Source of the DNA: Silvibacterium bohemicum
GTDB taxonomy: Bacteria; Acidobacteriota; Terriglobia; Terriglobales; Acidobacteriaceae
DNA: 64,000 bases
Assembly: GCF_001006305.1 (NCBI RefSeq)
Contig: NZ_LBHJ01000003.1
Span: 1,006,631 to 1,070,630, forward strand
Direction of reading: 5' to 3'
Shown here: piece after piece, positions 20,833 through 25,228 of the stretch
How positions within the stretch are numbered: the first letter of the stretch is position 1
How the letters are laid out: each line of letters starts with the position of its first letter
Notes under the pieces: model-generated
What the model was told of the DNA's origin: nothing
The model's database searches: none
Seen by the model: only the letters and a program-made list of their open reading frames with translations
Made by a program: the position numbers and the translations under genes

Positions 20833-21558
20833 TCATTCATCGAGCCGAAAGACAACATTGATGCTGGTCTCCACCTCGACCGGCTCTCCATTCAACTCAT
20901 AAGGCTGATACCGCGCCCGCGCGATGGCCTCAATCGCTGCCTGGACCAGCAGCGGCGGTCCGCTGACCGCGTGCGCGTTCTCGACCGCGCCAGTCTTGGA
21001 GATAGTGGCCTCCACAACCACCGTTCCCTGGATGCGAGCGCTCTTGGCGATCACCGGATAGACAGGCCGGATCGGCGCCAGCAGCCGTCCCGCCGCAACT
21101 CCAGCCGAGACGCGAAGCGGCCCCGCTCGTGGTTTGGCCGCGGACACCACATGGGGTGTCAGGGCGGTATCGGACCCGAAAAGCCCGCGCACGTCTCCCG
21201 GAGTGGACGATCCGAGGCCCACAACACCGATGCCTACTTCCGGTGGTCCCGGCGCATCGGTCACGTTCATCGCCGCGTGGGCTGGAATGCGGCTGGGCAT
21301 GGTGAGCGAGGCGAGCGTCGTAGGCATCGCCGGACGACTCACCACAGCATGTTCCGGCAGATTCGCACGCATCGGCGGAGGAGGCGGCGCAATCAGCAGC
21401 CGGGTCAGCGCCTGCCGCGGCAAAGCATCGGGATAGAGATACGGAATAAGAATGAGCACGGCAAGAATTGCCGCCTGCAGAAAAAACGAAGCACCCGCCA
21501 GCCTGCTGCTGCGCGTGCGGATCCGTCCCGTGGACTCAACCAGACTGTCTTCAAACAT
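20833..21558 (-). CDS. tonB: Energy transducer TonB
   Basis: A 241-residue protein: cytoplasmic N-terminus, one membrane helix (about 26-45, 'FFLQAAILAVLILIPYLYP'), a Pro/Ala-rich periplasmic spacer ('LLIAPPPPPMRANLPEH') and a C-terminal TonB domain (about 155-241) with 'VVVEATISKTGAVENAHAVSGPPLL' in part and 'ARYQPYELNGEPVEVETSINVVFRLDE' in part. It would carry proton-motive energy to TonB-dependent receptors such as that at 43-47 kb. ATG 21558 has GAGAGG immediately upstream. No exbB/exbD genes are adjacent. Confidence 0.9.
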   Translation of the reverse strand: MFEDSLVESTGRIRTRSSRLAGASFFLQAAILAVLILIPYLYPDALPRQALTRLLIAPPPPPMRANLPEHAVVSRPAMPTTLASLTMPSRIPAHAAMNVTDAPGPPEVGIGVVGLGSSTPGDVRGLFGSDTALTPHVVSAAKPRAGPLRVSAGVAAGRLLAPIRPVYPVIAKSARIQGTVVVEATISKTGAVENAHAVSGPPLLVQAAIEAIARARYQPYELNGEPVEVETSINVVFRLDE

Positions 21559-21653
21559 AACCTCTCCCAAAAAGCTGATTTGAGAGAGAGCGAGACACCT
21601 GTTTGGTTAGACACCGGGCGCGGCTAAAAGGCGGTCAGCTGAAGATCGGGTAT

Positions 21654-21830: not shown

Positions 21831-23009
21831 TCATATCTTAAGAAAGATCCGCTGCCGATAAAGCACATACGTAGGCACCCAACAAACCGCCACAAAAGCC
21901 AACGAAAAAATCAACGACGCCAGCGACGCATTCGGCACCACATGCGCGATGCCCCGATAACACCATTGCTGCAGGTTCACGCCCGCACCCATGTGGATGT
22001 TATCGATAGCCCCAGCCAGCAGCTCCGAAAAGACGTAGGCGAAGATCGCGTTCGTCCCAAAGACCAGCAGCGGCCTGGACCACGCAGAGGATTTGGCCGC
22101 GTCAGGCCTGGACTGGTTTCTCACATCCTTGGACTGATTGCGCAGATCGATGAGCCACACACTCAACGCCAGCAGCAGCAAACTCAGCCCCGCGGCGAGA
22201 AGCACGTAAGAGCTGGTCCACAGCTTCTTGTTGATTGGAAAAGTAAAGTTCCACACCGCTCCCAGGACGACACCGCCCATCCCCGCAAGTGCGATGCCGC
22301 GAGCCTTCTCCGCCAGCGGACGGGCCGTTCGCAGCCAGATGCCGGTGAGCATTCCGATCAGCGCCGTCGCCAGCGCGGGAATGGTGCTGAGCAGGCCCTC
22401 GGGATCGCGCGTGTGCTCGTAGAGATGCGATGCCGAGAAGATGTGCCGGTCGAGCCACGCCACCAGGTTGCGGTCGGGATCGAGCAGCGGAATATCGCGC
22501 CCCGGCAATCCATAGCCGGGAACGGGAACGTAGCGCATAAGAATCCAGTAGGCCGCGAGTGCGCCAACCGCAACCGCGGCCTTGCTGCGCCATCCCGGAG
22601 CAACAAGATAAAACGTAGCTACCAGCAGGTAGCAGATCGCGATGCGAGGCAGCACTCCATAGACGCGCCAGGTGTCGAGATGAAAGTAAGGGAAGTTGTT
22701 GACCAGCTGCCCGAACAGAAAGAGAATGACCGCGCGGCGCAGCGTGTGCAGGAAGATCGACATCCGGCTTGCGCCCTGCGCCATGCGCGAGGCGGTCGAG
22801 AAGACGGTGGAAATGCCCACCAGGAAGAGAAATGTCGGAAAGACCAGATCGGTGGGCGTGAAGCCGTTCCACGCCGCGTGCTTCAGCGGCCAGTAGGCGT
22901 GGCGCTCATCTCCGTTATTGTTGACCAGGATCATGAAGCCGATGTCCAGCCCTCGAAAGATGTCGAGCGAGAGCATGCGTGCAGGCTTGGCTGCGGTGGA
23001 AGCATTCAT
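21831..23009 (-). CDS. HGSNAT-like transmembrane N-acetyltransferase family protein (DUF5009/NagX-like)
   Basis: A 392-residue membrane protein with about ten predicted helices. It opens with the family signature 'RMLSLDIFRGLDIGFMILVNN' (in part) and 'LKHAAWNGFTPTDLVFPTFLFLVG'. His44 in 'KHAAWNG' sits where, from memory of the family, the active-site histidine of human heparan-alpha-glucosaminide N-acetyltransferase lies. Members acetylate amino sugars across a membrane or have been proposed as sugar transporters. It overlaps the upstream GH89 gene by four bases (23006-23009), so the two are translationally coupled and probably act on the same amino sugar. An acyltransferase-3 protein would look different, so confidence in the family is good. 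Confidence 0.85.
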   Translation of the reverse strand: MNASTAAKPARMLSLDIFRGLDIGFMILVNNNGDERHAYWPLKHAAWNGFTPTDLVFPTFLFLVGISTVFSTASRMAQGASRMSIFLHTLRRAVILFLFGQLVNNFPYFHLDTWRVYGVLPRIAICYLLVATFYLVAPGWRSKAAVAVGALAAYWILMRYVPVPGYGLPGRDIPLLDPDRNLVAWLDRHIFSASHLYEHTRDPEGLLSTIPALATALIGMLTGIWLRTARPLAEKARGIALAGMGGVVLGAVWNFTFPINKKLWTSSYVLLAAGLSLLLLALSVWLIDLRNQSKDVRNQSRPDAAKSSAWSRPLLVFGTNAIFAYVFSELLAGAIDNIHMGAGVNLQQWCYRGIAHVVPNASLASLIFSLAFVAVCWVPTYVLYRQRIFLKI

Positions 23010-25228
23010 TCTTGCGGGCCCTTTGCAAGCGAAGATGAGTTAGGCATCAGCTTAAGCCTTCTTGCGATCTCTGTCGCTGCCTGATACGCGTCGCCCTCAG
23101 GAACAGCCGGGTAGCTCTTCGTCTCGTGATTCCATCGGTCGCCAAAGGCATACCAGTCGATAGGCTGCGCAGGCTGTCCGCTGGACAGCGAATCGCGAAG
23201 ACTGTCGAAATACATGCGCCACCGCAGCAAGTAATAATCATTGACCAGGCCGGCCCAATCCTTGTTGCCGTACTCATGAAGATGGCCGTCCTCGCTGGCC
23301 TTGCGGTCGCCCCAGGTGGTCAGAATGGAGCGCGCGTCATAGTTCAGACGATCCGATTCCTCGGCTGAAGACGACCACTGCGGAACATACGAGAGCCAGC
23401 GTCCGAGAAGAAAATACTGGTTGGTGCGCAGCAGCCGATCCTCTAGCCGCATGCGTTCCTGAAACTCGGACGTCAGCCGGTCGAAAGCCTCTTTGTCTTT
23501 GCCGTCGTATGCTGCCTTGATTTCAGGCAGCAGCTCGCGCGCACTGTTCGCCAGCACCTGTCGCGCGATATCGACCAGATCGTACTGATATGTCTCGGTC
23601 GTGCGGAGAGCAGGCGCCGCCTGCAACAGCTCGGTGAGAGCCGGCGCGAGATCGTCACGGTTATAGCGCAACTCGTCGGGAGCCGACAAATCCGCATGCT
23701 TTGCGGTCAGAGACGGCTGAGCGTTGAAGAGGGAATCAGCCGACGCGTCCCGCTCGCCATGCCCCTGCACACCGTCGGCGCGGTAGCCATACGCGGTCTT
23801 CAGCAGAATCTGCCAGGCGCGTTCCGCATGCGCGTCCTCCGCGCCATAGCGACGACCTGTATAAGCGCGCGTCCACTCCGGCAAATCAACAGGCTCCGCA
23901 TGCCACGCCATTTCGGTGTACAGATCGAAGGCGTAGGGATTGGTGTCGAGCCCTTCGGTGAACAGCGCGATACCGCGAATCTTGCTGCCCGGCCGCTTCG
24001 CCATCTCCGGAAGCCGCACTGCATAGTCGTAAAGCGGCGCGCCCAGCGTAGTGCGTCCGCCGAACTCCCACAGGCCGCCATAGAGCCACGGCGCGCCGAG
24101 AAAATCCTTCTCGCGGGTTTCGCGTGGAACACGGCCCTGCTCGATGTCGGCAATTAGGACGCGGCTGGTGTCGAGTGACGAGAGCAGCTGCGGCGTGGGT
24201 TCTTTCTGCCACGCCATCATGAACCAGATCGCCCCCGGGTTCGACTTCTCGAGCGCATCCTGAACGGCCTTCGCGCCGGCCGCTTCCGGAACATCGCCCG
24301 AGGTTCCGCCCTCCTGGAAGATATTCATGTCGAACATTGGAGAGTCGCCGAAGAGCTCACGCTGATGGCGATAGAACGATGCAGCCAAAGTCGCGAACTG
24401 CGGGTCGCGCGGATCGAGCCAGCCGGGCCGTGTGAAACCATTCCATTCGCCCTGCGGAATGACATGCGCTCCTGGATGCGTCTCCGCGAAATCGGCAGGC
24501 ACGATGCCGTAATACCCGGGCAGCACCGGCGCAATGCCCAGACTACGCAGCGAAGCGATCAGCTGCTTCGCAGACTCCGCCCGCTTCTTCAAAAGCTCCA
24601 GCGAGATGGGCTCGTCGAAGCAGCACATGTTGCCCATCAGCTGCCAGTTCTGGTGAGCAGGCTGCGTGATCCAGCGGCGGATGGCTTCATCCGAATACCC
24701 CGCGTCGCGGAAGGTTTGGTAGAGCACATAATCCGTGCCGCGCTCAATGAGCACCGCGTTGATCCCGCTCAGCGCCAGAATATCGATCTCACGCTGCCAG
24801 CGCTTCTGGTCCCAATAAGGCGCGGTATAGCCATCGACATTTTCGTTGAGCGCATAGCGCCAGGGGTAGAGCGCAGGCCTCTTGATAGGCTGCGCCGGCG
24901 CCGGCAGTTGGAGTGCAGCCGACCCGAGCTGCAAGCCATTGGTCGACACCTGCAAATGGGCTACTTCTTTCAGGTAGGTATTCACTCCATAAAGGAGCGT
25001 GGGGACGGTCGCCCCCTCGACCTCGATGTGCCCTTGAGTCCCGGAGATACGAAAGAAATCCCGCCCGTCTTTCGGCTGGCTCAGTATCAGATGAAACTGC
25101 GGCGCGAGCCGGGGCATGAGTCGAAGGAGTACCTCTTGCGCGGGCTCAGTGGTAGATTGGGCGAAGGCCCGAAATGAAGCGAGGCAGACCGCGCCGAGCA
25201 GAAGATGCTTCCAGATCATGCGGTCCAA
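23006..25228 (-). CDS. Alpha-N-acetylglucosaminidase, GH89 (NAGLU-like)
   Basis: A 740-residue exported enzyme. Signal peptide: MIWKHLLLGAVCLASFRAFAQ (in part). Residues about 30-105 form the small N-terminal alpha/beta domain; about 115-440 is a TIM barrel ('PWRYALNENVDGYTAPYWD', 'INAVLIERGTDYVLYQTF'); the rest is the all-helical C-terminal domain. E306 in 'MNIFQEGG' and E425 in 'ALFTEGLDTN' are the likely acid/base and nucleophile; they are 119 residues apart, close to the spacing in human NAGLU. GH89 removes terminal alpha-linked GlcNAc from heparan-like glycans or host/fungal glycoconjugates. The downstream partner is the HGSNAT-like gene. Confidence 0.92.
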   Translation of the reverse strand: MDRMIWKHLLLGAVCLASFRAFAQSTTEPAQEVLLRLMPRLAPQFHLILSQPKDGRDFFRISGTQGHIEVEGATVPTLLYGVNTYLKEVAHLQVSTNGLQLGSAALQLPAPAQPIKRPALYPWRYALNENVDGYTAPYWDQKRWQREIDILALSGINAVLIERGTDYVLYQTFRDAGYSDEAIRRWITQPAHQNWQLMGNMCCFDEPISLELLKKRAESAKQLIASLRSLGIAPVLPGYYGIVPADFAETHPGAHVIPQGEWNGFTRPGWLDPRDPQFATLAASFYRHQRELFGDSPMFDMNIFQEGGTSGDVPEAAGAKAVQDALEKSNPGAIWFMMAWQKEPTPQLLSSLDTSRVLIADIEQGRVPRETREKDFLGAPWLYGGLWEFGGRTTLGAPLYDYAVRLPEMAKRPGSKIRGIALFTEGLDTNPYAFDLYTEMAWHAEPVDLPEWTRAYTGRRYGAEDAHAERAWQILLKTAYGYRADGVQGHGERDASADSLFNAQPSLTAKHADLSAPDELRYNRDDLAPALTELLQAAPALRTTETYQYDLVDIARQVLANSARELLPEIKAAYDGKDKEAFDRLTSEFQERMRLEDRLLRTNQYFLLGRWLSYVPQWSSSAEESDRLNYDARSILTTWGDRKASEDGHLHEYGNKDWAGLVNDYYLLRWRMYFDSLRDSLSSGQPAQPIDWYAFGDRWNHETKSYPAVPEGDAYQAATEIARRLKLMPNSSSLAKGPQE

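Follow-up and report, generated by a model that had tools for sequence, protein, structure and literature searches.

Two overlapping genes in a 64,000-nucleotide stretch of the Silvibacterium bohemicum genome (the window) raise the question of whether an exported glycosidase and a membrane acetyltransferase act in turn on one sugar. The first gene encodes a homologue of GH89, a known alpha-N-acetylglucosaminidase family, the second a homologue of the human lysosomal acetyltransferase HGSNAT, and the stop of the first overlaps the start of the second by four bases, as the original prediction had it (coding strand across the junction: ...CAAGAATGAATGCT...; Table 1). We consider it somewhat better than even, at a probability of about 0.55, that the two form a coupled periplasmic module which acetylates and then cleaves terminal alpha-linked glucosamine.

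Table 1 Features of the locus, in positions of the window.
Feature	Positions	Strand	Details
GH89 alpha-N-acetylglucosaminidase homologue	23006..25228	minus	740 aa from TTG 25228
HGSNAT-like (TmAT superfamily) membrane acetyltransferase homologue	21831..23009	minus	392 aa, ATG start
ATGA overlap, GH89 stop/HGSNAT-like start	23006..23009	minus	4 bases, translational-coupling type
TonB energy-transducer homologue	20833..21570	minus	Pfam TonB_C E 1.1e-19

The GH89 homologue matched the Pfam families NAGLU_N (E 5e-16), NAGLU (E 3e-94) and NAGLU_C (E 1e-75), all above cut-off, with the N-terminal, TIM-barrel and C-terminal domains all present, and matched PDB entry 2vc9 at E 9.5e-107. An in-frame ATG at 25219, giving 737 aa and the N-terminus MIWKHLLLGAVCLASFRAFAQ, is a likelier signal-peptide start than the TTG; judged by eye, this N-terminus carries a Sec-type signal. 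E306 and E425 (numbered from the TTG) align with the Gln positions of the Clostridium perfringens CpGH89 double mutant in 4a4a, the catalytic glutamates of that enzyme being E483 and E601 and the E483Q/E601Q mutant having been described in PMC8225759. Both residues are invariant across the two GH89 subfamilies that we encountered.

Comparison of the HGSNAT-like protein with human HGSNAT (8vkj, phmmer E 1.7e-22) placed His44 of its KHAAWNG motif on human His297 in KHASWNG, and D16, R19, M26, N30, H44, D54, R92, R115 and E204 on human D272, R275, M282, N286, H297, D307, R345, R372 and E499, respectively. In the human enzyme H297 and D307 are the catalytic dyad, N286 stabilises the acetyl carbonyl, R275, R345 and M282 contact acetyl-CoA, and R372 and E499 contact glucosamine (PMC11199644). 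The window protein thus keeps the His-Asp dyad, the oxyanion Asn, the DxxR motif, the Arg contacts to acetyl-CoA and the glucosamine-binding Arg/Glu, and the catalytic, acetyl-CoA and glucosamine residues were invariant in 14 homologues with identities down to 37%. An AlphaFold2 model (pLDDT 81.8, pTM 0.85) has the 10-TM TmAT fold, superposing on 8vkj (VIA) with Z 39.3 and 2.5 A across 345 residues, with TM 0.73–0.78 by Foldseek; HGSNAT structures matched at Z 33–39, followed by the acyltransferase GWT1 at Z ~20, all further matches lying at Z ≤5.6 and known transporters scoring Z ≤5. For the modelled topology, counting positive-inside residues gave a neutral result (9 in, 10 out). Pfam at E 0.001 returned no match for the window protein, HGSNAT_cat (PF07786) included, a family that is matched by its close homologues at loci L016 and L002. 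HGSNAT itself belongs to the TmAT superfamily; the paper on it reports that no DUF5009 protein has been confirmed by experiment (PMC12423673). The original prediction had taken E306, E425 and His44 as signs that both proteins are active, and had proposed structure prediction and alignment as a check; by these comparisons the model folds like HGSNAT, the catalytic His and both glutamates are retained, and both proteins may well be active enzymes.

The same prediction called for a survey of how often the two families adjoin, and adjacency recurs in related genomes. GH89 of the window type was found in nine of 247 genomes of the phylum, with an HGSNAT-like gene directly behind it in all nine (9/9); two of these genomes hold a second GH89 as well, with a TAT signal and 25–27% identity to the GH89 of the window, and each of these second genes is overlapped by an HGSNAT gene of its own. 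When species genomes were scanned more widely, 80 GH89 loci emerged; relatives of the window are over-represented in this sample, and its genomes are not independent. Two of its 26 acidobacterial loci were cut off, which left 24 testable; HGSNAT adjoins GH89 in 16 of these (15 behind, 1 in front), and in two more it is on the same strand at a distance of 4 kb, beyond an opposite-strand insertion. The remaining six have no local HGSNAT, though five of these six genomes hold one elsewhere (50–61% identity). HGSNAT adjoined GH89 at none of 28 loci of the Dyella type and other Proteobacteria, where the GH89 of Dyella and its relatives shares 55–60% identity and nine of 15 Dyella-type genomes have no HGSNAT at all, and at one of 25 Bacteroidota loci, where it stands directly in front (L088). 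On these counts, a GH89-HGSNAT operon common to all bacteria can be rejected: the pairing, absent at the GH89 genes of Rhodanobacteraceae and nearly so in Bacteroidota, is genuine, though clade-specific. Since the Dyella-type GH89 stands without HGSNAT, GH89 does not need this partner, and as an HGSNAT orthologue also occurs (L129) in a genome with no GH89 match, the two are not strictly interdependent.

In the HGSNAT tree, the partner in the window falls within a mostly GH89-linked group, for which support as a whole is weak (87/50), and the unlinked members inside it point to losses. Another, starred group unites the HGSNATs of the second GH89 type with that of L060, where the gene order is reversed, and the L088 protein of Bacteroidetes forms a separate, long branch. 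Because the HGSNATs of the window, of the second type with L060 and of L088 are separate in the tree, it looks as if the association with GH89 arose independently at least three times. An adjacency that is recurrent and was repeatedly formed speaks for terminal alpha-glucosamine being acetylated and then cleaved in one coupled step.

The surroundings of the pair in the window are plain: the HGSNAT-like gene has GH89, TonB, GGDEF and MFS genes as neighbours, and no inositol, PI-PLC or GH92 gene adjoins the pair. The TonB homologue, 3' of the pair on the same strand, is a possible operon member, and its relatives (~42–53% identity) divergently adjoin HGSNAT paralogues in four other genomes. A different HGSNAT paralogue (L004) adjoins GH18. 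Myo-inositol oxygenase (MIOX) and PI-PLC are present in the genome of the window on contigs other than that of the pair, and another locus of the same genome reads TBDT-PHP-PI-PLC-GH92-U803-PHP-HGSNAT paralogue, the last sharing 50% identity with the window protein. Sequence searches of Pfam and the PDB found no relative of U803 (803 aa).

Neighbourhoods in relatives are richer. At L022 the order is GH89, HGSNAT, sugar transporter, LacI regulator, MIOX, at L019 the GH89-HGSNAT pair is divergent from transporter, LacI and MIOX, and at L031 MIOX lies 5 kb from GH89. L029 carries in a row MIOX, a TonB-dependent receptor, a GH92 alpha-mannosidase, GH89 and HGSNAT, and L070 a receptor, GH92, an opposite-strand phosphatase-like gene, GH89 and HGSNAT. 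L039 groups GH89 with a receptor, a phosphoesterase, PI-PLC and the same LacI, whilst L046 groups it with the same transporter and with IolE-, IolB- and IolG-like genes (called by the Pfam families AP_endonuc_2, KduI/IolB and GFO_IDH_MocA). L129 runs from transporter through LacI, MIOX, a receptor (67% identical to that of L029), phosphoesterase and PI-PLC to the HGSNAT orthologue at its end. MIOX lay within 6 kb of GH89 at three of 26 loci against 0.04 expected (P 1e-5), with L029 as a further case, and HGSNAT within 15 kb of PI-PLC three times against 0.28 expected (P 0.003), where neither P value takes account of shared ancestry and both distances were picked after the loci had been seen; with related genomes, the proximity of HGSNAT to PI-PLC is only moderately significant. 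A LacI-type site, ACGTAAGCGCTTACGT, stands 5' of MIOX in L019, and variants of it precede the L022 transporter gene and the L039 TonB receptor gene. This operator was not found in the genome of the window, where the LacI homologue (50% identity) lies away from the pair, and the loci compared have no palindromic operator 5' of GH89 in common.

From family membership and conserved residues, a route can be proposed. The 10-TM protein would draw on cytoplasmic acetyl-CoA, and His44, together with Asp54 and Asn30, would N-acetylate a non-reducing alpha-GlcN on the periplasmic side, where Arg115 and Glu204 would hold the acceptor. The exported GH89 would then cut off the resulting alpha-GlcNAc, and the freed sugar could enter ordinary GlcNAc catabolism (nagA was present in all eight GH89 genomes searched, that of the window included). 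As GH89 is known as an alpha-N-acetylglucosaminidase family, a free-amine GlcN would need such prior acetylation. It is the neighbourhoods of the relatives, not the pair itself, that direct attention to inositol glycans: PI-PLC, phosphoesterases, GH92 and MIOX may supply the remaining steps, often from distant loci of the genome, with GH92 presumably acting on mannose, PI-PLC-like enzymes freeing the head group and MIOX consuming the inositol. That the substrates are inositol glycans released from GPI anchors or from the GIPC lipids of fungi or plants is a possibility that we rate a little short of even, the candidate linkages being GlcN alpha1-2/1-6 Ins and GlcN(Ac) alpha1-4GlcA alpha1-2 Ins. 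Free-amine GlcN alpha-linked to inositol, usually beneath mannose, occurs in GPI cores and in one class of fungal GIPC (PMC6151786), and plant GIPCs carry GlcNAc or GlcN alpha1-4GlcA alpha1-2 inositol, including GlcN-GlcA-IPC (PMC9113257). More tentatively still, Acidobacteria may possess a dedicated inositol-glycan pathway in which the HGSNAT homologue acetylates alpha-GlcN across the inner membrane before GH89 cuts. If so, the logic of lysosomal HGSNAT and NAGLU would operate in bacteria, turned on another glycan, the eukaryotic GIPC or GPI; the pair could then provide small bacterial models of two Sanfilippo disease enzymes, and possibly tools to strip GlcN from GPI and GIPC glycans.

Three other readings have to be weighed against the coupled module. 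The membrane protein might work as proposed for its bacterial relative NagX, acetylating free periplasmic glucosamine for entry as GlcNAc, with GH89 acting independently and both feeding the GlcNAc pathway. NagX has fitness data from five bacteria behind it (PMC9007349), the window protein matches the NagX model NF046061, and GH89 elsewhere adjoins NagB- and NagP-like genes, for example at L063 (by eye). The match of 160.8 bits is, however, far under the curated equivalog cut-off of 480, and among the acidobacterial loci read, as in the window, no nag genes were recognised next to the pair. Moreover, the product of GH89 is already acetylated, so this arrangement would not explain why the ATGA-coupled pairing should turn up in two GH89 subfamilies, and we regard it as unlikely. 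The membrane protein might instead import the GlcNAc released by GH89, the uptake route raised as an option by the original prediction, and so be a sugar transporter as proposed for the related TfMurT, which is distantly related to NagX (PMC9007349) and is reported to be a MurNAc transporter (PMC5790795). Against this stand the structural matches, led by HGSNAT and GWT1 with known transporters far below, the invariant catalytic dyad and acetyl-CoA contacts, and the separate sugar-transporter genes that adjoin the pair at other loci; an acetyltransferase fold with its residues in place makes import a most improbable role.

The pair might also repeat the lysosomal chemistry on heparan-like GlcN-GlcA polysaccharides in the periplasm, as the heparan sulfate frame of the original prediction would imply. 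Both families and their chemical order do match the lysosomal pathway, and activity on heparosan oligosaccharides is known for one bacterial GH89 (PMC8225759), but the Hepar_II_III domain (PL12/PL21 type) is absent from this genome and was found in only one of eight GH89 genomes, the hosts come from soil, the loci read showed no recognisable uronidase or GAG lyase, and the neighbourhoods point to inositol glycans. We therefore hold a heparan or heparosan module to be very unlikely. What stands of the proposed coupled route for terminal glucosamine is its periplasmic acetylate-then-cleave core, which the kept active sites and the recurrent adjacency favour at the level of sequence; its heparan setting is not supported.

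Parts of this scheme have known counterparts. The single-protein idea is already known from NagX (SO_3504-type), proposed from fitness data as a periplasmic glucosamine transacetylase (PMC9007349), and a bacterial HGSNAT-like membrane protein with a conserved His, proposed to transfer cytoplasmic acetyl-CoA onto a periplasmic amino sugar, is common to both; the window protein differs in falling under the equivalog cut-off, in being paired with GH89 instead of nag genes, and in its proposed acceptor, the end of a glycoside rather than free glucosamine. In the literature searched we came upon no account of a bacterial NAGLU-HGSNAT pair and no relevant paper on GPI utilisation loci. CpGH89 and Bt3590 of Bacteroides thetaiotaomicron share with the window enzyme the GH89 fold family, secretion and both catalytic glutamates (compared with CpGH89), yet act on mucin GlcNAc alpha1-4Gal or heparosan, whereas the subfamily of the window comes linked with an acetyltransferase and, among relatives, with inositol genes. 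Microbial release of inositol phosphate glycans, GlcN(Ac)-bearing ones included, from plant GIPC is known for the GIPC phospholipase C of Botrytis (PMC11496612), a fungal sphingomyelinase-type enzyme, in whose description breakdown of the glycan by a GH89/HGSNAT pair does not figure. The closest likeness is with human HGSNAT and NAGLU, which belong to the same families, have the same catalytic residues and work in the order expected here, acetylation across a membrane followed by cleavage of alpha-GlcNAc. In the window, however, the pair would work in a bacterial periplasm from overlapping genes of one operon, the membrane protein is without the N-terminal luminal domain of human HGSNAT, and the gene context of its bacterial relatives is that of inositol glycans, not of glycosaminoglycans.

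The run of seven genes at L130 in the window's own genome (contig C11, 466000-485900), which includes a paralogue of the HGSNAT-like protein, is a candidate inositol-glycan utilisation locus. Its 803 aa protein, for which searches for Pfam and PDB relatives found none, has a 51% homologue adjoining HGSNAT in another genome (G139, locus L147), and may be a new glycosidase.

Features at the HGSNAT-like genes
Feature	Position	Strand or note
L130 run: TBDT-PHP-PI-PLC-GH92-803 aa protein-PHP-HGSNAT paralogue	1857-15410 of L130	seven genes, one strand
TonB-like protein gene next to HGSNAT-like gene	window 20833-21570	-

TonB-like proteins adjoin HGSNAT paralogues in the window and at L141, L142, L145 and L151, across several genomes and differing subclades, with varying gene orientations.

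A phosphoinositide module recurs in Acidobacteria (loci L132, L133, L134, L135 and L136): PI-PLC-C1, a TonB receptor, myo-inositol oxygenase (MIOX) and LacI occur in all five. Four of these loci also have a GRP/TMEM144-like transporter, and some include a phosphoesterase, PHP or IolB-like gene. The LacI-type palindrome ACGTAAGCGCTTACGT is likely the operator of an inositol regulon in some relatives, with a perfect copy upstream of MIOX (L019:4191) and near-perfect copies upstream of a sugar transporter (L022:10540) and a TonB receptor (L039:9310); it was not found in the window's genome.

Conserved Bacteroidales loci within L075-L091 carry two tandem, divergent GH89 genes and lack HGSNAT. They also encode a member of the Gly_kinase family (PF02595), a protein of endonuclease/exonuclease/phosphatase-like type and lipoproteins that are uncharacterised.

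The genome that holds the window pair also holds a NagX-like setting (L004, contig C16), where a DUF5009 paralogue directly follows a GH18 chitinase gene, close to a gene resembling a DeoR-type regulator.
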